DNA from: a virus
Direction: 5' to 3' (one strand)
Virus record (IMG/VR): IMGVR_UViG_3300017788_000159
Span: 1-25,086 of that record
Length of the DNA stretch: 25,086 nt
Both the position numbers and the translations under genes were made by a program. Below the pieces are notes generated by a model. That model did no database searches. It was not told the DNA's origin and saw nothing but the letters and a program-made list of their open reading frames with translations. This document shows positions 2,581 to 18,101 of the stretch, piece after piece. The number at the start of each line of letters is the position of its first letter. The first letter of the stretch is position 1.

Positions 2581-4839
2581 CTATCTCCCTTTTTTAGATG
2601 ATGGTGCAGGTGCCGCAGTAACAACAATTGCCGTAGCAGCAATAATGACACGACGTGTTCCTACGGGAACCGCAGAGCCGAGCGGAACGTATGTGTCAAG
2701 CGTCCCTGAGCCGAATATGTCAATTTCTTCCTCAAACGCTTCTTTGATTTCCGTTGGGGCATTTTGTACTGCGGCAATAACGGCGAGTGCCTCTTCTTCA
2801 CTAAGTTCTGCTGCAGGAACCTCTGCGAAAATATCCGCCGCTTGGTCAGGCGTGACCGATGCAATGATTTCTGCGCTAGTTGCTAGCGCCGTCGCTTCAT
2901 CCTCGGATATCTCTGTTTCGAGAATTGCACCAACAACGTCCTGGAATTGTTCATCAGACAGGTCAGCCGAATCAATTGCCCCAATGAAGGCATCAAATTC
3001 CTCTTCAGAAAGTTCGGAGCCAACAATCGCGTCAATGGCGGCAATAAATTCCTCGTCGGTCAGGTCGGAATCAAGAATTGCGTCAACGGCAGCAGCAAAA
3101 ACCTCTGGCTCAATATCGCCGCTCAGTAGGTCCGTAATGGCTGCCGCAAGTTCCTCTGGCGAATCGGCCTCGAGGACGGCTTCCTCAACAGCGTCAATAG
3201 CCTCATCGGGGGTCTCTGGCGCGTCGTCTAATGGTGTATCCGGAGTTGTTTCTGGCGTTTCTTCTTCTGGGGCTGGTTCAGGTACCGTTGTTTCGGGGGA
3301 CGTCTCGTCTGGGGAATCTCCGGTTCCTGCATCAGCACCTCCGTCAGTAGTCGTTGGTATATCAGGAATTGTATCAGGCGGCTCAGTTGGCTCTGGCTCA
3401 ATAACAGGCGGCTCAGTTGGCTCTGGCTCAACAACAGGCGGCTCCGTCGTGCTCGGCGGAGCGGTATCCGGGGGCAATGTTGTTGTAGTTGTTGGCGGAG
3501 GTGGGGCGCTGATAGTAAGCACTGCGGCACTTGATTGCTGCGAATAGACACCATAGGAGTCATTGTCTGCCCGTACTGTTATCGCATATTCCTTGTCGAG
3601 GCCACCCGTCGATTCAAAAAGTGCATAACCCAGAGTGAACTCAGTAACCAGCGCCCCTTCGTCGCCCACATTGCCAGTGGCAACGCCCCAACCGCTGCTA
3701 TCGGTCGTCCAAGATATCGCATAACGTTCTGGAGAGATTCCGGTATTGTTCTGTGCGGCATCCCACGTCAAGACGATGGATGAGCCAGTATCTGTTGCTT
3801 GAAGATTTAGGGGCTGACCAAGAAATTTGGGAATCGTGGTCGTTGTGGTCGTTGTGGTCGTTGTGGTCGTTGCTGGTGTTCCTGAATTTGTGAAAGCAGA
3901 TGCCGGAACTACTTGCCAGCCATCTCCTATGTTCCAATACAGTCGGAAGCATTCACCACCGCTCCATTCATAGAACCATGCATCGATATTCACTGATTCT
4001 CCAGCATTAAATGAATACGTTGGAGATTCCGTGTAGTTGCAGCCACGGATAGCCCAGTAACCAAATTGATTATCGCCGATAGTCGCCCAGGAGCCATCGT
4101 CGGAATACATGCGAAACTGGACAGTTTCTGTTGGAATGACAATGTTCCCTGTGTAGTGCAGCATCACCTGAGTGGTGCGGCACCCAGCCATGTATATCTC
4201 CGGCCAGTCATTTATGGAGTCATAATGCGCAGTGCAATCAGGTGTTGCGGAATCAACACGACTTGGTGGGTTTGAGGATATCTCATATCCACGGACATTA
4301 AGCCCTGTTTGTGGTGTTGGCTGAACAGTTAGTGATGCATTGGTAACTGCTGGGCCATAACATCCTGCCCAGAACAAGCCATTATCACTGCCGGTGATTG
4401 AAATAGTGACGACTTCATTTGGGCTTGTGGTCACGATGGAGCGACTTACCTGCTGGCCCGGATAGGGCGGCTCAACGCTCCCCGTACTTACCGTCTCATC
4501 AGAATCCATAAGCGCAAGTTCGTAGCGGCCACTAATAAATTCCTCTGACCTATCTGAAATGGTTGCCGAAAACGTCACGGTTGATGGCTGAGAAATGATT
4601 ACTTGCTGTGTAACTGTGGATTGCGTATACGAGAAGTTCAGTGCGTTGCTTTGCCATCCGCCAAGCGAAGGGCGCCCACTCGAGCAATCATTTCCTCCAG
4701 TTGCTCCAGACCACCCCCCGCCAGATGACGAAAAACTGGAGTTCTCTAAAGAGTCAGTTGATATTGCAGAAACATGGACAGGAGCGAACCAAGCAAGGGC
4801 GGCAATCAGCCAGAATGAAATAAGTCCCCGTTTTCGCAC
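2581..4839 (-). CDS. Large secreted surface protein: PA14-like, FN3, Pro/Thr linkers, 17-residue acidic repeats, C-terminal TM
   Basis: The product has 752 residues. The start is GTG 4839 (MRKRGLISFWLIAALAWF), because a complete signal peptide begins there. In order it contains: a beta-sandwich domain (about 30-175); a PA14-like domain (about 180-323, with FRMYSDDGSWATIGDN and FRLYWNIGDGWQVV); a Thr run (about 323-336); an FN3-like domain (about 337-440, LNLQATDTGSSIVLTWD to YAITVRAD); a Pro/Thr/Glu-rich linker (about 443-535); an acidic helical region (about 536-710) with four 17-residue repeats; and a hydrophobic segment (RRVIIAATAIVVTAA) before a PAPSSKKGR tail. The layout suggests export, projection from the membrane and binding of a carbohydrate or surface ligand. 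It resembles secreted proteins of aquatic Actinobacteria more than a virion component. It appears to head a new transcription unit. Confidence 0.85.
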   Translation of the reverse strand: MRKRGLISFWLIAALAWFAPVHVSAISTDSLENSSFSSSGGGWSGATGGNDCSSGRPSLGGWQSNALNFSYTQSTVTQQVIISQPSTVTFSATISDRSEEFISGRYELALMDSDETVSTGSVEPPYPGQQVSRSIVTTSPNEVVTISITGSDNGLFWAGCYGPAVTNASLTVQPTPQTGLNVRGYEISSNPPSRVDSATPDCTAHYDSINDWPEIYMAGCRTTQVMLHYTGNIVIPTETVQFRMYSDDGSWATIGDNQFGYWAIRGCNYTESPTYSFNAGESVNIDAWFYEWSGGECFRLYWNIGDGWQVVPASAFTNSGTPATTTTTTTTTTTTIPKFLGQPLNLQATDTGSSIVLTWDAAQNNTGISPERYAISWTTDSSGWGVATGNVGDEGALVTEFTLGYALFESTGGLDKEYAITVRADNDSYGVYSQQSSAAVLTISAPPPPTTTTTLPPDTAPPSTTEPPVVEPEPTEPPVIEPEPTEPPDTIPDIPTTTDGGADAGTGDSPDETSPETTVPEPAPEEETPETTPDTPLDDAPETPDEAIDAVEEAVLEADSPEELAAAITDLLSGDIEPEVFAAAVDAILDSDLTDEEFIAAIDAIVGSELSEEEFDAFIGAIDSADLSDEQFQDVVGAILETEISEDEATALATSAEIIASVTPDQAADIFAEVPAAELSEEEALAVIAAVQNAPTEIKEAFEEEIDIFGSGTLDTYVPLGSAVPVGTRRVIIAATAIVVTAAPAPSSKKGR
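2899..3102 (-). repeat. Four diverged 17-residue acidic repeats (51 bp units) inside the secreted protein
   Basis: The encoded units are VFAAAVDAILDSDLTDE, EFIAAIDAIVGSELSEE, EFDAFIGAIDSADLSDE and QFQDVVGAILETEISED. Each has the same pattern: a hydrophobic helix face, Asp/Ala-Ile, then an acidic (L/I)(S/T)(D/E)E cap. They read as a tandem helical-repeat array. At DNA level the units are diverged, so the array is old rather than freshly slipped. Confidence 0.8.
3375..3445. repeat. 30 bp tandem repeat, about 2.3 copies, in Pro/Glu linker
   Basis: Two near-identical 30 bp units (3375-3404 and 3405-3434, differing at one base) are followed by a partial third. They encode the repeated EPEPTEPPV linker of the secreted protein. 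Copy number could change by slippage without a frameshift, since 30 is a multiple of 3. Confidence 0.85.
3836..3871. repeat. 9 bp microrepeat, 4 perfect copies, encoding a Thr run
   Basis: The unit gtggtcgtt occurs four times in succession. On the minus strand it encodes the poly-Thr spacer between the PA14-like and FN3-like domains. The spacer length is likely to vary between relatives. Confidence 0.9.
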
Positions 4840-7801: not shown

Positions 7802-8575
7802 CTATTGGTCGCACGATGCATCAAGGTCTGCTGAATAAGTTTCTGAAATTTGACCAACCAAGACCTGTATTAGTTCGTTGCGTTGCCGCTGTGCCGTTGA
7901 CGGTGATATGTGCTGCTTATAAAGCAATTTCGGGATATGGAGGCACTGAGTTGCTAAATAAGTACGCACAAAAAGTTCATAATCATCAGCAACCGGCAGG
8001 TGCTGATTATGTCCACCAATATTTCTGTAGGTGTCTGCTCTCCACGCTCTTACGTGATTGGGAGCAGAAACAATATGACCAACCGTAGTTCGGTTTAGTT
8101 CTGGGGCACGCATGACCCATACCCCATACTCCTCTGACCAATAGTCTGCGCCGAAGCCAAACGCCCATCCATCTGGATAACGCCCGGACTGCCCATCGGG
8201 AAGTATTTCGCACCAGTCCGAGTAAACGAACCCAACATCGCTGTTATCAGAAAACGCCGAACTGATAATAGTGAGCGCATCTGGTGTCAGTTCGTCATCG
8301 TGGTCCAGTTCAACCAGAATGTCCCCTTCGGCGACCATAAATCCACGTCGCTTGACGGCTCCAATTGACCCAGAATAGACGTGAGAGCGGTGCATCTGGA
8401 TTCTGTATCTTTCATCAGCGCAAAATCCATATAATTGCCGCCAGGTCTCATTATTGGTTGAGTCATCCCAAACAACCCATTCCCAGTCTGTGAATGTTTG
8501 CGCCTTTAGTGATGCCCAAGTACGAGCAAGAACTTCAGGGTCAGTGTTGTATGTGGGCGTGATGATTGAAATCAT
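7802..8575 (-). CDS. Family 2 (GT-A) glycosyltransferase
   Basis: The frame is open to 8773, but the start is taken at ATG 8575 (MISIITPTYN), which overlaps the TGA of the upstream membrane-protein gene (ATGA) and begins exactly at the GT2 core. The product has 257 residues. GT-A hallmarks are the nucleotide-binding start IITPTYN (4-10), VVWDDST with Asp37/Asp38, the DXD-like ELDHDDELTPD (89-99, Asp91/93/94) for metal and sugar-nucleotide binding, and ADDYELFVRT (196-205) with the general-base position. Such enzymes move a sugar from a nucleotide donor to a protein, glycan or small molecule. The donor and acceptor are not readable here. It is the last gene of the accessory enzyme island and is soluble; the three-TM protein encoded just upstream might tether it. 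Confidence 0.88.
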   Translation of the reverse strand: MISIITPTYNTDPEVLARTWASLKAQTFTDWEWVVWDDSTNNETWRQLYGFCADERYRIQMHRSHVYSGSIGAVKRRGFMVAEGDILVELDHDDELTPDALTIISSAFSDNSDVGFVYSDWCEILPDGQSGRYPDGWAFGFGADYWSEEYGVWVMRAPELNRTTVGHIVSAPNHVRAWRADTYRNIGGHNQHLPVADDYELFVRTYLATQCLHIPKLLYKQHISPSTAQRQRNELIQVLVGQISETYSADLDASCDQ

Positions 8576-8859
8576 AGGAAGTGTTTCAGAATTGCAGAAG
8601 AAGCAAGAATCACCCAAGCCACATTGAACAAAATGATAGTTGGGAGTGTTTTCTCCGTTGATGACCAGATGAGCGCGATACTTGACGCAATTGCGAAAAT
8701 GTAAAGCCACCACCATTGAGCACCAAAAAGAAGACCCGGAAAGATAATTAATAGTTTGGTAGTGAAGCCCCACGCTTCAACAATATTGGGCTTGTTCCAG
8801 TATTGCTTTTTGAACATCTTGACTACAGCGTTAGTTATCTTTGTAATTAAACTATTCAT
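8572..8859 (-). CDS. Small membrane protein with about 3 TM segments
   Basis: The product has 95 residues and starts at ATG 8859 (behind CAGGAAAA), inside the end of the upstream gene. A basic amphipathic N-terminus (TKITNAVVKMFKKQYW) precedes hydrophobic segments FTTKLLIIFPGLLFGA, WWWLYIFAIASSIALIW and PTIILFNVAWVILASSAIL. A compact WSSTEKTLPT loop joins the last two. It ends HFL and its stop overlaps the start of the glycosyltransferase gene, so the two are probably translated together and may act together at the membrane. I recognise no named family. Confidence 0.72.
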   Translation of the reverse strand: MNSLITKITNAVVKMFKKQYWNKPNIVEAWGFTTKLLIIFPGLLFGAQWWWLYIFAIASSIALIWSSTEKTLPTIILFNVAWVILASSAILKHFL

Positions 8860-9121
8860 TATTTTCCTGTGGATAACCAACGATACCTACTACTTGCAAT
8901 AGGGTAGTAAGGTCAAACACCGCACGATGTATTTGGTCTTTTGGCAAGTTGTAGTACATTAAGTTTCGGACAGATAAGTAGTTGGCGTTAGAAATGTACT
9001 GGGGTTCAAGTCCTGCAAGTCGCGTTAACCTAAATGCCTCGCTCTTGCAATAGTCAGCAAGTTGCATCTTGATGCGGCTCTTCACCCTTGCTACTTCATC
9101 CACGATATCTCCAATCAACAT
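8852..9121 (-). CDS. Small protein of unknown function, paralogue of 12767-12985
   Basis: The product has 89 residues from ATG 9121, which overlaps the oxygenase gene's end; a GTG with a nearby GGAG farther in (MDEVARVKSR) is an alternative start. It is helical, and its core LAGLEPQYISNANYLSVRN matches the core LAGIEP, then NY, VR and a Tyr, of the 72-residue protein at 12767-12985. There is further agreement in the final helix (HRAVFDLTTLLQVVG versus RKALIELSGVLYFSI). It might be a small adaptor or regulator for the island's enzymes, but nothing in the sequence shows a reaction. It overlaps the next gene. Confidence 0.7.
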   Translation of the reverse strand: MLIGDIVDEVARVKSRIKMQLADYCKSEAFRLTRLAGLEPQYISNANYLSVRNLMYYNLPKDQIHRAVFDLTTLLQVVGIVGYPQENNE

Positions 9122-9903
9122 GAGCACTCACCGCCCGCATGACCATTGACTGATTGAATCGTTGCGGTTACGAATGTAGAGACTATCCACTTATCGGATG
9201 ATAGTGGCATTAATCCCTCGTGGGGATGGGTCCAGTAAGCGGGAAATAACGCAACCCGACCGGCTATGGCATCAATCACTGTTTGATGGAAGGGGAAATG
9301 GGTTCCTCCACCTGCCTCAACCGTATTGAGATAAATAATTACCCCTAAGGTCCTATGGGATGCATTACCAACCCATGGTGACCCGTCAGTATGCGGGTTA
9401 TAGAAGCCAATGTTCTTTGCGTATTTTTGCACCTGATATCCGGTATCAGCCGTCATGCAGAATTGAAAACTATCCGGCTGACACAAGGTGGGAAATGTTT
9501 CTTTGTAAAGATTAATAATTTCCCATAGGCGTGAAAAAATCTGCCTATCAAACTTATGCTCTTCGTTGCGTGGTTCTTCGTTTTGCGATATTTGCTCAAT
9601 GTGCCAGTCTGTTGACACCTTCGTGCGGATATCAACTCCACCCATTGTTCTCCCAACCTTGGATTTCTGCATGTTGGTGGAGCAGTATTCAATGAGGCTC
9701 GCGCAAAAATCTGGCGAAAAAACACCATCAACATATGCAATTGCTGATGGTCTACCACGGGGGAAAGTAAATGGCACTGGGTCGTTTGGCGTTACACCGA
9801 TGCCGAGGGTTGTCGGGAGCAATAGTTCACTCAGCGTCAGTTGTTTTACGGTTTTTTCTATAACCGAGTCCAATTCCCTCTCCTTGGAGTCTTGTTGGTC
9901 CAT
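9115..9903 (-). CDS. 2-oxoglutarate/Fe(II) oxygenase, prolyl-4-hydroxylase type
   Basis: The start is uncertain. ATG 9903 (GAAGGGGTG upstream) is used here, giving 262 residues and a 77-base overlap with the previous gene; TTG 9873 behind AAGGAGAGG is an alternative. The catalytic double-stranded beta helix is clear. YNPHTDG supplies His171 and Asp173, the RVALFPAYWTHPHEG strand supplies distal His228, and Lys238 lies exactly ten residues later. H-x-D, then H and K separated by ten, is the arrangement of collagen-type prolyl 4-hydroxylases, where the Lys binds 2-oxoglutarate. GVIIYLN and GGGTHFPF fit the family core. Family members hydroxylate proline or other residues of proteins, or small molecules. 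The substrate here is unknown. It sits between the 253-residue unknown protein and a small paralogue protein. Confidence 0.88.
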   Translation of the reverse strand: MDQQDSKERELDSVIEKTVKQLTLSELLLPTTLGIGVTPNDPVPFTFPRGRPSAIAYVDGVFSPDFCASLIEYCSTNMQKSKVGRTMGGVDIRTKVSTDWHIEQISQNEEPRNEEHKFDRQIFSRLWEIINLYKETFPTLCQPDSFQFCMTADTGYQVQKYAKNIGFYNPHTDGSPWVGNASHRTLGVIIYLNTVEAGGGTHFPFHQTVIDAIAGRVALFPAYWTHPHEGLMPLSSDKWIVSTFVTATIQSVNGHAGGECSC

Positions 9904-10588
9904 CAGAAACACCCCTTCCGTAAACATATTTGAAGTCATCCTCTGAGCCGAACTTAATTGATTCTGTATCGCCGCTTCGTAAGAAAGGAAATATCTGAAC
10001 AAGAGGCTCACCGTATCGAATCACAAATGGTTCGGTGCCCTTGAGGTTTAGTACGACATTCATTTGGTGGTAGTAGTCGGTGTGAACAAGCGCTGGCACC
10101 ACATCGTAGTTATTGTTTGGCTCGTATGGAATGCCTGTAATGATTGACGACCAACCCTTGGCAGTTACGATAGAGTACGGGTTTACCAGTTTTGGGTACG
10201 GAGAACTTTCGATTCCTCGAACTCTGCTCATTGGACATTCGCCAGTTGTTGAGGCGGGGAATGGCTGACTCTCGAATGGCACTAGAGAGAATGGCATTTG
10301 CCCAATGCTCACATCCCAGCCGCCGAGTTCAGGGCGTGGCACAAACGAGAAATCAGTCCATGCAGGAATAATGAATCCCATATTTAGGTACTCAAGGACT
10401 CCGGCACACCTTCTGATGCCATCTTTTGGTGCCGCCCTAAACCAGTTGGGAAGGTTTTTACCGCCAGCCTTGTAGGGCTTGGCATCCTCAAGTAACCGAT
10501 TGTCCATTGGGATAAGCAGAACTTCGCCGGGTTTTACGCTCTTGCGCATCTGCCGATACTTATTTTTGGGCCTAGTCGTAAAGTTCAT
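9827..10588 (-). CDS. Conserved-looking beta protein of unknown function next to the halogenase (DUF6065-like?)
   Basis: The product is 253 residues. The start is ATG 10588 with a perfect AAGGAG six bases upstream, rather than the earlier TTG at 10609. It is mainly beta, with no TM and no signal peptide. Notable segments are GFIIPAWTDFSFVPRPE, PYSIVTAKGWSSIITGIPYE, VPALVHTDYYHQMNVVLNL and EPFVIRYGEPLVQIFPFLR. They suggest a cupin- or dUTPase-like beta barrel, and the pattern reminds me of the DUF6065 type. It overlaps the halogenase gene by 17 bases and the oxygenase gene downstream, so it is probably part of the same enzymatic unit. It could be a substrate-binding partner, but its function is not known. 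Confidence 0.72.
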   Translation of the reverse strand: MNFTTRPKNKYRQMRKSVKPGEVLLIPMDNRLLEDAKPYKAGGKNLPNWFRAAPKDGIRRCAGVLEYLNMGFIIPAWTDFSFVPRPELGGWDVSIGQMPFSLVPFESQPFPASTTGECPMSRVRGIESSPYPKLVNPYSIVTAKGWSSIITGIPYEPNNNYDVVPALVHTDYYHQMNVVLNLKGTEPFVIRYGEPLVQIFPFLRSGDTESIKFGSEDDFKYVYGRGVSDGPTRLQGEGIGLGYRKNRKTTDAE

Positions 10589-12047
10589 TAAATGACTCCT
10601 TGTGGTCAATCAGTATTTCCGAAATCCGTCCGTGTCTGCGGATTGATATTTCCCTTAGTGCCCACTCTGTTGTATCAAAGTTTGTGAACGCCGTCCTGAT
10701 TGGTTCGGTGTTAATGACATTTTGACCTTGCGCAACATGCAGAAGATGTGCAATTTGGAACATTTCTCCATTGTTATGACCAATAAAATCGCGAGGAAGG
10801 GTTGTTTCTTGCCACAAATCTAACAATTCTTGAAGCGTATCGTTGACTGGCATTTCTGACATAGCCACCCAAAATGGCGTGTCTCGTCTGTCGGAGATAT
10901 AGTGAAGTCGAACCATTGTCAAGATGTTGTCCATCATGGTGTTGAACGACTTGTTATAGGCGCGCTGGGACGCCCAGTGCGATGGTGAGTAGGAGGCAAC
11001 ATACGGAATGAGTTGTTCCATTTGCTGAATCGTGGAACCAATAGATGTTGCTTCAATCGGTTCCACGAACGAACCGGCAAGACCGACCCCACAGCAGTTC
11101 TTCACCCATGGTGAGGTCATATGACCAGCCTCAAACCTAAAGGAACGAGCAGGTTCAATCTTGTACCCAACAGCCTTACATGCTTCAAGTCGAGCATCTT
11201 CATCACTAATAAAAGACGAGCAATAAACATACCCATTGCCCCTGCGTTCTTGGGTAGGAATCTCCCACATCCATCCAGACGAACGGGCACGAGCACGAGT
11301 GTACGGTCTAATCTTTCCATTGGGGTCAGCCTCAGTTGGGAAAGCAAATGCCGAATCACACAAGAGGTACTTGCTGAATGATTTCCATTCGGTGTTCCCG
11401 ATAGAGGTGCTCAAAACCCTACGGAAACCGGTTGCGTCAATCCAGAAGTCTGCTCCGATTGTATTCCCAGACTCAAGTGTTACTGACTTGATATTCCCAG
11501 TATCGGAAGCAAGATTCACCTTGGAAATTGTTCCTTCGATAAAGCCCACGCGCCTTCGTGATGCAACAGCCCTGAAGTACGAATTGAGTTTGAAGGTATC
11601 AAAATGAAATTGATTAGTATTTTTGTGAAGATGTTCTTTTTTGATTTGGTCTGTATATAGACCAATGCTTGCCGTGTTTTGCGTTAGGGGCCTACCCTGA
11701 CGAATAAGTTCGCTGTATACCCCGTAAAGCCTCCACATGAATACAACTTCATCACCCCACACACTATGAAAATAATCAGGAAAAGCATTTGACCACTCTT
11801 CAAAACGAAGTCCATATTTGTGTGTCGCTCGTGTTTCAACAATCATTTCAGCAAGAGGAATCTCACACCGGTCCATCATCTTGCTCCAGTGTTCTGTGCT
11901 TCCCTCACCAACACCGACGATGCCTATTTCTGAAGATGAAATTACAGTAATTTCAGAACGAGGGAACGCAGACCTGAGCATGACCGACGCAAGTAAGCCA
12001 GCAGTTCCGGAGCCAGCAATTGCAAAAGATAGAGGCTTGTCGCTCAT
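10572..12047 (-). CDS. Flavin-dependent halogenase (tryptophan halogenase family, viral type)
   Basis: The product is 491 residues. It has the FAD-binding GSGTAG at 12-17, the candidate catalytic lysine Lys77 in RATHKYGLRF (the lysine that carries the hypohalous species in PrnA/RebH), the family signature GWMWEIP at 258-264 (consensus GWxWxIP), an FAD-site DATGFRR (204-210) and FVEPIEATSIG (327-337) matching the FxEPLExT segment. These enzymes use FADH2, O2 and halide to halogenate indoles, phenols or other aromatics. A characterised cyanophage member, VirX1, prefers iodide. A flavin reductase is needed, but none is in the window, so a host enzyme must supply FADH2. It lies in an overlapping gene run with a 253-residue unknown protein and, upstream, a methyltransferase-like gene. 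The substrate is unknown. Confidence 0.92.
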   Translation of the reverse strand: MSDKPLSFAIAGSGTAGLLASVMLRSAFPRSEITVISSSEIGIVGVGEGSTEHWSKMMDRCEIPLAEMIVETRATHKYGLRFEEWSNAFPDYFHSVWGDEVVFMWRLYGVYSELIRQGRPLTQNTASIGLYTDQIKKEHLHKNTNQFHFDTFKLNSYFRAVASRRRVGFIEGTISKVNLASDTGNIKSVTLESGNTIGADFWIDATGFRRVLSTSIGNTEWKSFSKYLLCDSAFAFPTEADPNGKIRPYTRARARSSGWMWEIPTQERRGNGYVYCSSFISDEDARLEACKAVGYKIEPARSFRFEAGHMTSPWVKNCCGVGLAGSFVEPIEATSIGSTIQQMEQLIPYVASYSPSHWASQRAYNKSFNTMMDNILTMVRLHYISDRRDTPFWVAMSEMPVNDTLQELLDLWQETTLPRDFIGHNNGEMFQIAHLLHVAQGQNVINTEPIRTAFTNFDTTEWALREISIRRHGRISEILIDHKESFNELYD

Positions 12048-12060
12048 GCGTGGAACATTA

Positions 12061-12765
12061 TCACACTGCGTGGCGCGTGCAGAGGGTATATGAGATATAT
12101 CCCTGCATATGCATGATATCGAAATCAGTAAGTTCTTTTAGTCGTCTATGTAGTTCATGGGGGAAACTTGTGGTTCCTGAATCATTGTAAAGTTCTCCAC
12201 CATTGGATGAATTAGAAATAATCAAAAGTCCACCAGGCTTAATTGCACCTACCACAGCATCAAATACATCGGGGTCAGCCATGTAGTTGATGACAATTTG
12301 CGCAAAGTCAACCTGAGGCATTGATGTCCTGATTGTGTGCCAAGATAATGTCGTGACATTTTCAATCGAAGTCGTATCGACTACCTGATTCAATAGGTGT
12401 AATGAGCAGTGGTTTGCTGTGTAAACAGTGGTGAGCGTGTCAGACGCTAGAAGGATTTCAATTGGTGACCCAATCACCAAGCCAGTCTGTGCCTGTGTTA
12501 GACGAGCAAAGAATTTCGGAAAGTGGCTGATTGACCACAGCATGGGTGCCAAAATCTCACCACCCGGTGCTCCGGTTACGCCATAGTAATGAAACTCTGT
12601 CGACCTGCTTGGGTAATCTACGCTTCCGCCTGCAATTGTTTTTACATGCTCAAACATATCCTTACAGACCCGAACATAATCCTCCAAATTTGCCAGAATG
12701 GAATTCGTTGATGTTTGGAGGGCAAAATGAGTTTCATCACCAATGCGAATGAACTGATTGGGCAT
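12061..12765 (-). CDS. Methyltransferase-like (Rossmann-type) protein, degenerate
   Basis: The product is 234 residues. The start is ATG 12765 with AAGGAAG upstream, placed right after the upstream stop; the frame runs slightly farther to 12786. The C-terminal half resembles a class I SAM-dependent methyltransferase: strand LVIGSPIEILLAS in the place of motif I, strand VDFAQIVINYM in the place of motif IV, then DVFDAVVGAIKPGGLLIIS as the post-motif helix and strand. The usual GxGxG loop is not intact (VIGSPIE), so SAM binding is uncertain. The N-terminal part (FHYYGVTGAPGG and others) is not recognised. It directly precedes the halogenase gene, 13 bases away, and could methylate the same substrate or act as a non-catalytic partner. 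Confidence 0.6.
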   Translation of the reverse strand: MPNQFIRIGDETHFALQTSTNSILANLEDYVRVCKDMFEHVKTIAGGSVDYPSRSTEFHYYGVTGAPGGEILAPMLWSISHFPKFFARLTQAQTGLVIGSPIEILLASDTLTTVYTANHCSLHLLNQVVDTTSIENVTTLSWHTIRTSMPQVDFAQIVINYMADPDVFDAVVGAIKPGGLLIISNSSNGGELYNDSGTTSFPHELHRRLKELTDFDIMHMQGYISYTLCTRHAV

Positions 12766-12766
12766 T

Positions 12767-12985
12767 TCACACTTCCTTCGTGACAATGGAGAAGTAAAGT
12801 ACGCCGCTCAACTCAATAAGTGCTTTTCGTAGACGACTACCAGTTAAAGATAAATAAATTGCATCTCTAACTAAATCATAGTTAGTCTCATCAATAATTA
12901 CTGGCTCAATGCCAGCCAAACTACAAAGATAGTAGCAGCGTTCTGCCAAATAGTTGGCGTGGTCTTGTTTGTCGTAATTAATCAT
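12767..12985 (-). CDS. Small protein of unknown function, paralogue of 8852-9121
   Basis: The product is 72 residues from ATG 12985 (MINYDKQDHANYLAERC); a TTG nine bases earlier is an alternative. The ATG overlaps the end of the preceding small gene. It is helical, with core SLAGIEPVIIDETNYDLVRD and closing helix RKALIELSGVLYF. The LAG(I/L)EP, NY, VR and Tyr positions and the final helix match the protein at 8852-9121, and more weakly the one at 13153-13395. It is encoded just before the methyltransferase-like gene. It may be a small accessory factor of the island enzymes; its function is unknown. Confidence 0.68.
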   Translation of the reverse strand: MINYDKQDHANYLAERCYYLCSLAGIEPVIIDETNYDLVRDAIYLSLTGSRLRKALIELSGVLYFSIVTKEV

Positions 12986-13151
12986 TCTGCTCAACCATAA
13001 TCATAAATGGCGTGTCGAGTAGTGGGCATCCACTATCTTCAGTTGCCTGATGCACCAACCAGTCCTGAAGGTGCATCCCATAGTCCACGGGAATTCCCTC
13101 TGCCTGCCTAAGTTCCTCAATGCGATGAGTCACTGGGTCTTCTGGCAACAC
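12978..13151 (-). CDS. Small acidic protein, GTG start, unknown function
   Basis: The product is 57 residues from GTG 13151, which follows the upstream TGA by one base with GGGGG upstream. It ends at TAA 12978, overlapping the start of the next gene. The sequence begins MLPEDPVTHRIEELRQAEG and continues with VDYGMHLQDWLVHQATED and a C-terminal PFMIMVEQND. It is acidic, soluble and partly helical. Evidence for coding is the tight packing with shared stop/start codons on both sides. I recognise no family. Confidence 0.6.
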   Translation of the reverse strand: MLPEDPVTHRIEELRQAEGIPVDYGMHLQDWLVHQATEDSGCPLLDTPFMIMVEQND

Positions 13152-13152
13152 C

Positions 13153-13395
13153 TCATACCCCCAGCGCCGTCAACTTACTTGCAATAATTTGTAGACCAGC
13201 ACAAATTTGTTCAACCCTTACGATATCCCCAGACATTTCGTAGTTATCCAGCGATGCCTCATCGGTAAAATCAAATACCTCTGGGTCAATTCCGTGACGC
13301 AATAGGATTGCCGTAAGTTCTGTTGATAACTGGTCGCGTGATGACTGTAGAACGCTAATTTTGGTCGCGTTAGAAAGTGTGTTAAAGAATGACAT
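13153..13395 (-). CDS. Small helical protein of unknown function, possible distant paralogue of 12767-12985
   Basis: The product is 80 residues from ATG 13395 behind AGGAGATTTT, following the His-rich tip gene by 17 bases. The segment ILLRHGIDPEVFDFTDEASL, followed later by a helix (QICAGLQIIASKLTALG), has the same order as the LAG(I/L)EP core and closing helix of the proteins at 12767-12985 and 8852-9121, but with low identity. Candidate roles are chaperone or adaptor for the tip proteins upstream or the enzymes downstream. No function can be assigned. Confidence 0.65.
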   Translation of the reverse strand: MSFFNTLSNATKISVLQSSRDQLSTELTAILLRHGIDPEVFDFTDEASLDNYEMSGDIVRVEQICAGLQIIASKLTALGV

Positions 13396-13412: not shown

Positions 13413-14750
13413 TTACTGATTAAGAATAACATAGGTGTTGCCTACTTCCCCCGGTACTCCAGTTGTCCCCTGTGGTGTCTGGTATGTCAGGCCGCTAGGG
13501 GTTGTTTCGGTGATGATAATAATCGCCCCACCACCTCCGCCATTCCCCGTTAACCCTGTGTTTCCCGTTACCGCTGGCGCTGCCGCACCACCTGCGCCAC
13601 CCGTACCGCCCGCGTAGTGGGAGTTGGTGTTGCAGATGTGGGATGCGTGGGTGGCATTGTGGGCGTTGCAAACCGTGTGGTGATGGTTGCTCTGCGTGGT
13701 GTGGTGATGGTTACTCTGCACATGATAGTGGTGGTTGGACTGGGCATGAGCGTGGTTGACGCAGTTACCACTTGGGTGGTGCTGCGTGCAGTATGTATGG
13801 TGGTGATTATCTCGTGCCGTGTGGTGATGGTTACTCTGCACATGGAAGTGATGGTTATCTCGAACATGACCATGCGTTGCACAGTTGGAGGTGTTCACTG
13901 GGCTGGTGTGGGTGTTGCATCCAGCAATGTTTGTATTTCCCGTTTGACCCGCGTTGACAGTTAGGTTTGGCGCACTGGCTCCGGTATTCCCTGCTGTTCC
14001 AGGGTTACCTGTCACCCCCACGAGACCGACCTGACCATCGCCAGCGCTTGCAGTAATTGTGCCAGTGCCGGTTATGGATTTGGCAACAATGACAACCAAG
14101 CCACCCCCCGGTCCACCTTGACCACCTGCACCTCCAGTTCCGGCAGTCGCTCCTGTGGCAGTTCCATCATTGCCAGGATATCCTTTTCCACCGGATGCAC
14201 CGACAGTGTTGGCATTTGGCGTGTACCCGCCAACATTGCCAGCAGACCCGCTTTTCCCCGCCCACGAATCACTGTTTGTGTACGCAGCAACCGTATTGCC
14301 GTTTGCTCCGTCGTTTCCCGCTGACCCTCCACGGACCGGAGCCAGAGCGCTGTTTGTTGGGTTTTGCACTGGCTGTGAGTCAACAACAACACCAAGCACA
14401 TTCTGTAGTACCCATGTCGGGGCAGCACTAGCGTTTGAAAGACCGCCCATTCCGCCTAAAACATTCGTGATATTCGCACTTAATGTTGCTGCCGTAATTG
14501 TGTTAACTGTGGTGTCTGTGGACAGTGCCCGAATCGTACCATTTAAGGTGAGCGTGCCTTTTACGAATATTCGAAACGCAGCATTAGTTAATATTGTTCC
14601 TGCATTAACAGTGAGATTGTTGTAGTACATGTCGCGAGTCAGCGTGGTATTTGATGAAATCGTTACATCGCCATCAGTCCCCTGACCATAAATAGCGTCA
14701 TTGCCTGCTCGCTGAACTGTTGTTCGTCCGTAATTTGCTAAGCCAGCCAT
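13413..14750 (-). CDS. Glycine-rich tail tip/adhesin protein with His/Asn/Cys-rich segment
   Basis: The frame is open to 14960, but the true start is ATG 14750 (MAGLANYGRTT), just after the upstream stop. The product is 445 residues. The N-terminal module (about 1-75, DGDVTISSNTTLTRDMYYNN then FRIFVKGTLTLNGTI) is shared with the upstream 243-residue protein. Residues about 125-275 are Gly/Asn/Thr-rich with GGAGGQGGPGGG, suggesting polyglycine-type packing as in T-even gp38 adhesins (analogy only). Residues about 280-380 contain roughly 29 His and 6 Cys, with repeated SNHHHT/DNHHHT phrases duplicated at a 40-residue offset. A second glycine block (GNGGGGGAIIIIT) closes it. His clusters could bind metal, as the HxH motifs of the T4 gp37 tip bind iron. 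It is probably the receptor-contacting end of a fibre. Confidence 0.82.
   Translation of the reverse strand: MAGLANYGRTTVQRAGNDAIYGQGTDGDVTISSNTTLTRDMYYNNLTVNAGTILTNAAFRIFVKGTLTLNGTIRALSTDTTVNTITAATLSANITNVLGGMGGLSNASAAPTWVLQNVLGVVVDSQPVQNPTNSALAPVRGGSAGNDGANGNTVAAYTNSDSWAGKSGSAGNVGGYTPNANTVGASGGKGYPGNDGTATGATAGTGGAGGQGGPGGGLVVIVAKSITGTGTITASAGDGQVGLVGVTGNPGTAGNTGASAPNLTVNAGQTGNTNIAGCNTHTSPVNTSNCATHGHVRDNHHFHVQSNHHHTARDNHHHTYCTQHHPSGNCVNHAHAQSNHHYHVQSNHHHTTQSNHHHTVCNAHNATHASHICNTNSHYAGGTGGAGGAAAPAVTGNTGLTGNGGGGGAIIIITETTPSGLTYQTPQGTTGVPGEVGNTYVILNQ
13699..13844. repeat. 26 bp perfect direct repeat, 120 bp offset, within the His-rich segment
   Basis: The same 26 bases occur at 13699-13724 and 13819-13844 (both begin gtgtggtgatgg and end ctctgcacatg). 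They encode the shared HHxHVQSNHHHT phrase of two 40-residue modules. The unchanged DNA indicates a recent duplication or ongoing recombination within the adhesin. Confidence 0.88.
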
Positions 14751-14752
14751 GG

Positions 14753-15484
14753 TTACATCGCCTGAATATGAAAATGGGTGCCGTTTTGACCGGTATAAAT
14801 ACCGGATGTGCCTCCGCCTACATCGACAGTAATGTTGGCCGGTAAAGAGACACCTGTTGAAATAGTTAGAACAACACCACCACCAGCAGAACTTGAAGCC
14901 GGTGCTGTGAATCCTGCTGCCGTTCCGGTCCCCGTATAGGCAATATATCTTGCCGCACAAATTACAACACCACCACCATCGGCGGAACCGGTACCAGCGC
15001 CGCCTCGCAGAAATACAGGTCCACCACTTGCCGTAATTGCATACCCTCTAATTGCATTTAGGGGTTGCTTGTAATAGTCGGGTCCGCCTAATGATGCTGT
15101 CGGCGGTGTTGCCTCATTCCCTACTTCGCCACCTTCACTCCCACCAAGACTATGAGTCACCGGTCCGATGCCGCCGCCAGCGATTGAGCCTGTGCCAGCA
15201 AAACCCGTGGTGAAGCCAATTAGCGAACCGTTCCCCAAGGACAGTAAATTTTTAACAAAAATGCGGTAGCCGTTTGGGTTAATGCGAACATTGGCAGAGA
15301 TAGTCATGTTGTAGCAAAAAATGTCTCGCGTCAGTGTGTACACGCTAGAAGCAGGCGCAATACTCAGAATTGTTGTGCTTCCGTCAAAAGTGACAGAACC
15401 ATCATTGCCAGTTCCATAAACAATATCTGGCGCGTCAAGAAATTGTGCTAAACCATTTGACCCGTATTTAACTAAACCAGGCAT
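14753..15484 (-). CDS. Glycine-rich tail tip protein, paralogue of 13413-14750
   Basis: The product is 243 residues; its ATG at 15484 overlaps the upstream TGA (TGATG). The N-terminus (MPGLVKYGSNG, then YGTGNDGSVTFDGSTT, YTLTRDIFCYNMTISA, GYRIFVKNLLSL) matches the first 75 residues of the next gene's product, showing a tandem duplication. The body has Gly-rich loops (TGSIAGGGIGPV, RGGAGTGSADGGG) separated by hydrophobic strands (VVICAARYIAY, GGVVLTIS). It ends TGQNGTHFHIQAM with a His-x-His. It lacks the long His-rich insertion of its paralogue. It is probably a fibre tip component or an alternative adhesin. Confidence 0.78.
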   Translation of the reverse strand: MPGLVKYGSNGLAQFLDAPDIVYGTGNDGSVTFDGSTTILSIAPASSVYTLTRDIFCYNMTISANVRINPNGYRIFVKNLLSLGNGSLIGFTTGFAGTGSIAGGGIGPVTHSLGGSEGGEVGNEATPPTASLGGPDYYKQPLNAIRGYAITASGGPVFLRGGAGTGSADGGGVVICAARYIAYTGTGTAAGFTAPASSSAGGGVVLTISTGVSLPANITVDVGGGTSGIYTGQNGTHFHIQAM

Positions 15485-15843
15485 CAGGTCTCCTCAACAC
15501 CAACCACTGTCATATTGACAGATGTCGCGGAAGAACATAATGCCGTCAATTGGTCGCTGTTTGTTGCGTTTGCTGTTGAGCCATTGTTATTCATAACTAA
15601 GGAACAGTTGAACGCAATTGTTTCATAGGCTGCAATAGTCATGGCGCTTAAAATATCGTGTGTTGCGGCTTCAGTGACATTCAGTGGCTTAAGGCGAACA
15701 GTCACAGTTCTTGCTGATGCCGTGGTATTTGTCAAAATAATCTGTTTGACAATCGTGGTCGTGCTGATTGGAACCGTGTAGTACACAGCAGATGATGCCG
15801 TCAATTGTGACGGACCTGCAAGTCTTTTCTGTGTTAAGGGCAT
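15484..15843 (-). CDS. Small phage tail accessory beta protein
   Basis: The product is 119 residues; its ATG at 15843 overlaps the TAA of the collagen-like fibre gene (TAATG). It has strands AVYYTVPISTTTIVKQIILT, TVTVRLKPLNV, AYETIAFNCSLVM and SVNMTVVGVEET. The same design is seen in the 120-residue protein at 7365-7727. This type of beta protein is commonly encoded next to fibre genes in aquatic phages. It is probably a virion component linking fibre and tip proteins; the exact role is unknown. Confidence 0.75.
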   Translation of the reverse strand: MPLTQKRLAGPSQLTASSAVYYTVPISTTTIVKQIILTNTTASARTVTVRLKPLNVTEAATHDILSAMTIAAYETIAFNCSLVMNNNGSTANATNSDQLTALCSSATSVNMTVVGVEET

Positions 15844-18101
15844 TAGATAACCTCCATAAGAAACTCAATTTTCAAGTCGCGCACATCTGTTGTTATGGCG
15901 ACAGTACCATTTTTGTCGGGAAGCGTCAGTGTTCTATGGCCGGTAAGTGTGGTCGGCGTAAGGATTATGTCGTAATTTTGAGAGCCTCCACTGCCGCCTG
16001 CAAGTGATACGCCATCGCCACCCGCAATGCTCGGCATTCTTGCTGTAATTGTTCCAACAACATGTAATGCCACTAACGGAGATGTCGTGTTCACCCCAAT
16101 GTAGTTATTGGATGCGTCAACATAAAGGGTATCAGTGTCGACTGATAGCGCTGCCGCAGAGAGTCTCGTTCCGTCAAACGTTAGATTCGCACTACCTGCG
16201 GCTGCGTTTGAGCCATCTTTGTATACAACTTGGTTGGCACTGCCAGCAACCGGGCCAGTTGCACCCTGCGGACCCTGCGAACCAGTTGCCCCCTGTGCGC
16301 CAGTTGCACCCTGCGGACCTTGCGCGCCCGTTGCTCCCGTTGCTCCCGTTGCTCCAGTTGCTCCAGTTGCTCCTTGTGGTCCAGTTGCCCCCTGTGCCCC
16401 CGTTGCACCTTGAGCGCCTGTTGCTCCAGTAGCCCCCTGAGGACCGGCTGAACCCTGAGGTCCCTGCGCCCCTGTTGCTCCTGTCGCTCCCTGAGCACCT
16501 GTTGCGCCCTGTGGTCCCACATCACCCTGTGGTCCTTGTGCGCCAGTTGCGCCAGTTGCCCCTTGCGCCCCCGTGTCACCTTGTGGACCCTGTGCTCCTG
16601 TTGCTCCGGTTGCTCCCTGTGCCCCCGTAGCACCAGCGTCTCCTTGTGGACCTTGTGAGCCTGTTGCGCCCTGAGCACCAGTTGCCCCCTGAGCACCAGT
16701 AGCACCTTGTGCGCCCTGTGCTCCTTGTGCGCCAACATCTCCAGTTCGAGCAAATGTGATAATGACATCATCGTTGTTTGCAAATGGAGTAGTGCTAGAG
16801 CCAGTCACATAAGACGAAATGACCCTGAAGAAGCCAGTCTCTTCGGTGATTGAAGAAATGGTGAACAAAGCAAAAGCGGATGAATCACCTTTCTTGGACA
16901 CACGGAAGTGACCTTTTATTGTGCTCGTGGAGTCATCAATGGTTCTCAGGTATGACTGAATGTCAGTTGAGTTGTCATCAACATCATCAATAACTAGTTC
17001 GGTTGATAAATTAAGAGATGAATTATCAAACTTTAGTTTCCCTGCACCGGGGTCAGTCTGGGCAGTGTTTGAATCAAAGGTGTAGTCGAATGTAACTCCG
17101 CCAAAGTTTCCTTGGGCACCTTGTGGACCTTGTGAGCCTGTTGCTCCCTGTGCTCCAGTGTCGCCTTGGGGACCGGTGGCACCCTGAGGACCGGTTGCTC
17201 CTTGGGCACCGGTCGCACCCTGTGCTCCGACATCCCCCTGTGGACCCGTCGCCCCTTGAGCGCCAGTCGCACCCTGAGGTCCGACATCTCCTTGCGCGCC
17301 CTGTGCCCCAGTGTCGCCCTGTGGACCCTGCGCCCCCGTAGCGCCTTGAGGACCGGTCGCGCCTTGTGCACCCGTAGCGCCCGTAGAGCCTTGTGGACCA
17401 ACATCTCCTTGTGGTCCTGATGCCCCCTGAGCACCTTGTGGACCTTGAGCACCAGTTGCCCCTTGTGGACCAACATCACCTTGTGCTCCGGTGGCACCCT
17501 GAGGACCAACATCTCCCTGAGGACCGGTCGCTCCTTGTGCGCCCGTTGCACCCTGCGGTCCGGTATCGCCTTGTGGGCCCGTTGCTCCAGTTGTCCCAGT
17601 CGCTCCTTGTGGACCGGTAGCCCCCTGTGGACCGGTAGCACCCTGCGAACCCGATGCGCCTTGCGCGCCAGTTGCGCCTTGCGCGCCCTGTGGGCCAGCA
17701 GCGCCCTGAGGACCCGTGTCACCTTGTGGGCCAGTATCGCCAGTGGTGCCAGTAGAACCCTGTGGTCCCTGTGCTCCCTGTGGCCCTACTGCTGATGTGG
17801 GCTTATACTTCGTCCCATCAAAAACTAGGGCTTGGTCGCTCGTTGCCCCACTTGTGTCTACCTCAATACCATCGACAAAGAGTGCAGCAGCCTTGAAAGT
17901 ATCATCGGTTTTTAGTACATCGGCACTATCGCGGTAAAGATTGGTATCTGCTGCACCGTCACCCGCCCCCCATACGAGGCGACCACCGGCCTGGACCTGA
18001 AGGCGAGCGTAGGTATCTGCGTCAACGAAAACAGTAATGGCATCAGAACCAGCAGAGGATAACTGCCGTATCGTTATCGGAACGGTAAATTTCTGTGCCA
18101 C
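15843..18101 (-). CDS. Collagen-like tail fibre protein
   Basis: The product is 752 residues. The start is GTG 18101 (MAQKFTVPI), sharing the first five residues with the preceding fibre. Residues about 1-104 form an N-terminal domain. Collagen block 1 (about 105-331) is a near-unbroken Gly-X-Y series dominated by [12 protein letters not shown] and GDV. A globular insert follows (about 332-454, [11 protein letters not shown], then [16 protein letters not shown], ending [10 protein letters not shown]), of a type common inside phage collagen-like fibres. Collagen block 2 covers about 455-617. The C-terminal part (about 618-752) has [17 protein letters not shown] and [15 protein letters not shown], another common fibre module. 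Pro occurs only in X position and there is no Lys in the triplets; Thr is frequent in Y. The product is expected to be a trimeric, rod-like adsorption fibre. Confidence 0.9.
16250..16738. repeat. Collagen-like 9 bp triplet-codon repeat, block 2
   Basis: This is a degenerate 9 bp periodicity encoding Gly-X-Y, about 54 triplets, with higher-order reuse of phrases such as [17 protein letters not shown]. It provides ready substrate for in-frame slippage and recombination with block 1. Confidence 0.9.
17107..17790. repeat. Collagen-like 9 bp triplet-codon repeat, block 1
   Basis: This is a degenerate 9 bp periodicity encoding about 75 Gly-X-Y triplets, with recurring longer phrases such as [13 protein letters not shown]. 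Long open frames on the plus strand here are by-products of the repeat, not genes. Confidence 0.9.

Follow-up and report, generated by a model that had tools for sequence, protein, structure and literature searches.

This study concerns a 25,086-base virus record from IMG/VR (IMGVR_UViG_3300017788_000159; the whole stretch is called the window), whose main genes all lie on the minus strand in a tail-fibre region, and an island of ten genes within it that is sandwiched by an adhesin-type gene pair, fibB and fibA, and a second fibre-like module (Table 1). The original prediction for this DNA described about ten overlapping genes between fibre modules, and all ten open reading frames (ORFs) were found, tightly packed or overlapping. 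Several starts in the mechanical ORF list were too long and were corrected by fit with neighbours and relatives (glycosyltransferase 8575; membrane protein ~8859; oxygenase ~9903; u260 10588; methyltransferase-like gene 12765); with its corrected start, u260 had the 253 residues first assigned to it. A longer version of fibA, a TTG ORF at 13413–14960, carried a spurious N-terminal extension. Very probably fibA (13413–14750) belongs to the functional unit, which would then reach beyond position 13395, where the island had first been ended.

Table 1. Features of the tail-fibre region of the window.
Feature	Coordinates	Strand	Description
fibB	14753..15484	-	Paralogue of fibA, Gly-rich and adhesin-type; lacks a low-complexity segment; immediately upstream of fibA (class I loci)
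fibA	13413..14750	-	Gly-rich adhesin-type, 445 aa from ATG 14750; central His-rich segment; proposed substrate
s80	13153..13395	-	Small protein; often two copies, flanking halogenase-u260
s57	12978..13151	-	Small protein; only in closest relative (contig of L002/L003)
s75	12767..12994	-	Small protein, s91 paralogue; family in 9/40 groups
Methyltransferase-like	12061..12765	-	Degenerate; accessory
Halogenase	10572..12047	-	Flavin-dependent, Trp-type (predicted)
u260	9827..10588	-	Predicted dUTPase-type fold; phrog_7084, distant to DUF6065; proposed helper/docking protein
P4H-like 2OG-Fe(II) oxygenase	9115..9903	-	HxD...H...K
s91	8852..9127	-	Small protein, s75 paralogue
Membrane protein (predicted)	8572..8859	-	Small, hydrophobic; tblastn match in 53/81 loci; family F9
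GT2 glycosyltransferase	7802..8575	-	257 aa from ATG 8575; accessory
Collagen-like Gly-X-Y tail fibre	15843..18101	-	Upstream of cassette

Enzymes and folds encoded by the island

The halogenase matched Trp_halogenase (PF04820, E = 2e-98) over nearly its full length (residues 9–447 on profile positions 3–447 of 458). The signatures GxGxxG, Lys77, GWMWEIP and EPxEA were retained in 40/40 groups of halogenase loci (defined below), with one Leu for Met and one Leu for Ile as the variation in GWMWEIP, and the protein is by these residues a flavin-dependent Trp-type halogenase whose active-site residues are intact, as first claimed. The 2-oxoglutarate (2OG) oxygenase matched 2OG-FeII_Oxy_3 (PF13640, E = 2e-8) and phrog_61 (E = 7e-31), and its HxD, distal His and Lys/Arg residues were conserved in 51/52, 50/52 and 51/52 cases. 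As a lone query against viral_contigs it returned no relatives, being too diverged for single-sequence search. It resembles 2OG-Fe(II) oxygenases of the prolyl 4-hydroxylase (P4H) type in its HxD...H...K residues and in these families; it differs from classic P4H in that collagen-type Pro is not what it is proposed to act on.

The remaining assignments also stood: the family 2 glycosyltransferase (GT2) carries an intact DXD motif in the form DHD (PF00535, E = 3e-17), s75 and s91 are paralogous, and the 241-aa methyltransferase-like protein was very divergent and Rossmann-like, with no match in family searches. No core biosynthetic enzymes (nonribosomal peptide synthetase, polyketide synthase, precursor of a ribosomally made and modified peptide, etc.) were found among the island genes in family searches. 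Flavin reductase was likewise missing from the island, and PF01613 from 12 long related contigs, so that reduced flavin for the halogenase would be supplied by the host. These absences agree with the earlier view that the island is not an ordinary natural-product pathway.

The AlphaFold2 (AF2) model of u260 (mean predicted local distance difference test, pLDDT, 87.4) matched dUTPases in Foldseek with a probability of 1.00 and template modelling scores (TMt) mostly of 0.6–0.76, and by this model u260 has a dUTPase-type fold. Its profile matches to dUTPase and DUF6065 were weak, with only residues ~144–213 aligned. Compared to dUTPases, u260 shares only the core at ~10% identity, is nearly twice as long and is found with adhesins, and its catalysis is not assumed.

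Recurrence of the neighbourhood in other phages

Searching with the halogenase retrieved 80 loci which, together with the window, formed 40 groups at 90% halogenase identity; neighbouring families were merged by profile. Among these groups, u260 and the 2OG oxygenase were each present in 39, fibA/fibB in 37, s80 in 35, a 140-aa protein (F5) in 34, the small membrane protein in 25 and F8 in 20; F5 and F8 matched no Pfam family. The conserved order was fibB-fibA-s80-(F5)-(P4H)-halogenase-u260-(P4H/F8)-membrane protein, and it held though halogenase identity to the window dropped to ~42%. A reverse search with u260 retrieved 76 new loci, with a halogenase in 76/76. The neighbourhood thus exceeds chance, recurring as it does in 40 non-redundant halogenase groups, and its genes proved to be linked and not independently shuffled. 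The proposal that they form one tailoring set was partly supported, linkage holding for the halogenase, u260 and the oxygenase; the methyltransferase-like gene (12/40) and GT2 (5/40) were rejected as core members on frequency and are accessory. No description of a halogenase/oxygenase/u260/fibA unit was found in open-access searches, which left most subscription journals outside their reach.

The u260 family co-occurs with fibA-family proteins also in loci that lack a halogenase, namely the class II loci described below and halovirus HF2, so that u260 probably works for the adhesin and not for the halogenase only. In HF2, a haloarchaeal virus (L162; 6740–7630 and 8560–9597), the u260 homologue lies beside a Gly-rich protein of the fibA family, with no halogenase. 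Another member of the u260 family, used as query, matched haloviruses and cyanophages; window u260 and the fibA N-terminal region gave no match when searched against cultured phages. Bacterial DUF6065 loci, in a sample of one phylum, had no halogenase within the ~3.7 kb examined.

VirX1, the characterised flavin-dependent halogenase of cyanophage Syn10 (PDB 6QGM), belongs to the same Pfam family as the window halogenase (E = 1e-42) but is only ~27% identical to it, and the adhesin array of Syn10 has only modest His (0.10). A review (PMC8407142) does not list a natural substrate for VirX1. Besides two halogenases and several 2OG-oxygenase-like genes, the VirX1 region holds a u260 homologue (E = 1e-16). 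Directly upstream of the halogenases, three adhesin-like proteins rich in Gly are encoded, CPUG_00134, CPUG_00135 and CPUG_00137, and loops containing His occur in two of the three. Downstream of VirX1 and the u260 homologue runs a series of several 2OG/cupin-like genes (L086; 11077–15353). Cyanophages S-RIM44 and P-TIM40 repeat the Syn10 arrangement, with double halogenases and a u260 homologue directly downstream of Gly-rich adhesin-like arrays, and in S-SRM01 a halogenase lies between a tail-fibre region and an adhesin-tip gene.

WhiB, which marks actinobacteria and the phages that infect them, was present in 21/31 related contigs, including all those above 90 kb, so that the hosts are mostly Actinomycetota; the cassette also occurred in two contigs binned as Gammaproteobacteria, where His was lower (0.12 and 0.07). 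Among freshwater actinophages, those of 'Ca. Nanopelagicales' are available as isolates (PMC10202952). Elsewhere in the window (2581–4839, minus strand), a protein of 752 aa that looks secreted, and that has long runs of Thr and linkers rich in Pro and Thr, recalls actinobacterial surface proteins.

The fibA segment and the enzymes beside it

The original prediction overlooked the His-rich segment of fibA, which is the likely substrate. In the window this segment has 113 aa with 29 His, 16 Asn, 6 Cys, 3 Tyr, 2 Pro and 0 Trp; across 90 non-redundant cases its median length was 175 aa and its median content 41 His. Next to the first 80 halogenase loci (35 non-redundant), all complete fibA proteins had a His-enriched 100-aa interval, with a fraction of 0.11–0.43, while the 419 further ORFs of 300 aa or more in these loci reached at most 16% His per 100 aa (0/419 at 0.20) and the adjoining paralogue fibB just 0.00–0.04 in relatives. 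AF2 was confident for the fibA scaffold (pLDDT >90) and not for the segment (residues 273–375, <50), which is therefore predicted to be, and probably is, disordered. The fibA fold had no match in the PDB; viral structure matches were Gly-rich or collagen-like, with low TM, and were not informative. In its Gly-rich scaffold, variable segment and tail-fibre gene position fibA resembles, as far as these features go, the gp38 adhesins of T-even phages and S16; unlike in gp38, the variable segment is long, of low complexity and predicted to be disordered.

His was the most conserved residue of the segments (84% vs 66% overall, in 164 pairs of 45–85% identity), and after hand correction for abundance it still came first (~0.78 vs ~0.72 for Gly). 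Trp was absent from 37/90 segments, including that of the window, which excludes Trp as a general target in the segment, and the L078 segment lacked both Trp and Tyr. Were the segment the substrate, His would be the only such aromatic residue found in all cases. Halogenated His and Tyr occur naturally (PMC8659048). For the oxygenase, the segment does not offer the X-Pro-Gly prolyl substrate of P4H proper (2 Pro in the window, 0 in L003); with Pro nearly absent from the window segment and Asn common in class I and II loci, hydroxylation of Asn or His appears likelier from composition than collagen-type Pro hydroxylation.

Enzyme content was then compared with segment type using fibA as the sole bait and ignoring the enzymes, in a set of fibA-retrieved loci plus the window and HF2 that was dereplicated at 90%. 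A His-rich segment occurred together with a halogenase in 52 loci and neither occurred in 29; two loci had a halogenase with low His, and none was His-rich without a halogenase (Fisher 2e-20, for loci that are related). The low-complexity segment, u260 and P4H were all present in 58 loci, all absent in 17 and mixed in 8. Class I loci combine a His-rich segment with the halogenase and u260, and almost all of them also have P4H. Class II loci have Asn/Tyr/Thr-rich repeats (GYSYGYSY, NYGSNPTNYG), NYP or other repeats, a reversed fibA-fibB order, 2–3 u260 and 1–2 P4H, with the halogenase absent; in class III, fibA has no low-complexity segment and the halogenase, u260 and P4H are all absent. Among class II proteins, fibA of L328 (6992–8344) and L335 (6977–8320) has GYSY and NYG repeats that are prion-like in look, beside oxygenases and u260 without a halogenase. 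A further segment type, of Arg/Asn/Glu repeats (NEVRLVEGRVN), was seen in L326 (7001–8872), with three u260, a P4H and no halogenase.

Candidate substrate and competing explanations

The reading we favour, and consider fairly probable on these sequences, is that the phage-encoded cassette adds halogen and hydroxyl groups to the disordered tip of a tail adhesin, fibA being the candidate substrate. Lying next to the enzymes and covarying with them, fibA could in that respect be the kind of ribosomal substrate expected in RiPP-type peptide maturation. The original prediction had left the target as phage adhesins, a host surface polymer or a small molecule; the adhesin is favoured over the other two, since the enzymes present vary with the make-up of the adjoining fibA segment. 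The folded Gly-rich scaffold of fibA would display a long, probably disordered His-rich segment, in which, late in infection, the 2OG-Fe(II) oxygenase would hydroxylate residues and the halogenase, with reduced flavin from the host, would halogenate them. For halogenation His would be the prime suspect, and for hydroxylation Asn or His; docking, chaperoning or holding of the chain may fall to u260 and the small proteins as helpers; and the modified segment could serve in host contact as an adhesive or metal-binding tip of tuned chemistry. Linkage, intact active sites, covariation of enzymes with segment and predicted disorder are seen in the sequences, from which we infer the substrate, the modified residues, the role of u260 and the role in adsorption. 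As an analogy only, the jaw protein Nvjp-1 of the marine worm Nereis is described in PMC13120676 (citing Birkedal 2006) as a His/Gly-rich, halogenated structural protein; this and other animal His/Gly-rich hardened proteins are unrelated to fibA.

Several observations weigh against this proposal. The halogenases of many cyanophages (P-SSM2, S-PM2, Syn1, S-MbCM6, S-B64, S-SSM7) and of HTVC008M do not lie beside fibres, so that the link to fibres marks some lineages and does not extend to phage halogenases in general. The cut-off for His (0.105) was chosen after the distribution was seen, and at 0.10 one His-rich locus without a halogenase appears (L332, class II). A halogenase accompanies low-His fibA in L259 (0.09) and L278 (0.10) and, among loci found via u260, low His in L167 (0.06) and L376 (0.07); in L060 (3502–4968), a halogenase of the clade lies next to another Gly-rich protein and a putative oxygenase, with no fibA or u260. 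On the fibA tree, the halogenase and His-richness change only 5–7 times, as expected of shared descent, and independent supported pairs number only 2–4, never discordant and too few for significance; shared ancestry thus limits the independence of the association. We also know of no flavin-dependent halogenase that acts on protein His.

Production or tailoring of a small molecule or host surface polymer, with the fibre region merely a hot spot for accessory genes, is the rival we take most seriously, though we think it unlikely. A cluster in cyanophages S-SSM7/SSM6a that holds a halogenase, 2OG oxygenases and carbamoyltransferases has been interpreted as a system for a secondary metabolite or for capsule (PMC7824862), several other phage halogenases also sit among metabolic genes, and the window itself has a GT2. 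That cluster shares with the cassette a phage halogenase with 2OG oxygenases, but has sugar and carbamoyl genes, no adjoining Gly-rich adhesin and no u260. Moreover, a core biosynthetic gene is absent from the island, the position beside fibA is fixed across very diverged phages, and the enzymes follow the fibA segment type, with none beside a segment-less fibA. That the segment is a plain metal-binding tip (Fe, Zn, Ni), with the enzymes acting elsewhere, seems to us improbable. The very high density of His and its rank as the most conserved segment residue would suit such a tip, and HxH motifs bind iron in T4 gp37 and are proposed to do so in other phages (PMC11705849), but this would leave unexplained why the halogenase is missing where the segment of an otherwise homologous fibA is not His-rich.

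The few independent gains and losses on the fibA tree also suit pure hitch-hiking, in which an ancestral block of fibre and enzyme genes was co-inherited and the enzymes act on the collagen-like or another neighbouring fibre, P4H being the classic modifier of collagen. We regard this as very unlikely, as Pro in the window fibre chiefly occupies position X (GPQ, GAT, GAQ) and not the Y position used by animal collagen P4H, the halogenase has no evident role on such a fibre, and His is conserved above other residues while the segments diverge. Collagen hydroxylation as the main role was rejected on Pro position and the unexplained halogenase. Beyond the favoured proposal of adhesin modification, we offer only tentatively that these loci may represent a dedicated phage protein-modification chemistry, in which a halogenase of protein-bound His, an oxygenase and a dUTPase-fold adaptor act on hypervariable disordered segments, the type of residue going with the enzymes carried, and that the natural job of VirX1 may be similar.

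The genomic rule that segment type predicts the enzyme set can be tested directly by others, and the comparable position of VirX1 in Syn10 makes the idea testable on a cultured phage. If it is true, protein histidine halogenation would be a new enzyme activity, viral halogenases such as VirX1 would have a natural substrate, and the chemical maturation of phage adhesins would be a layer of phage-host recognition that is invisible in sequence alone.

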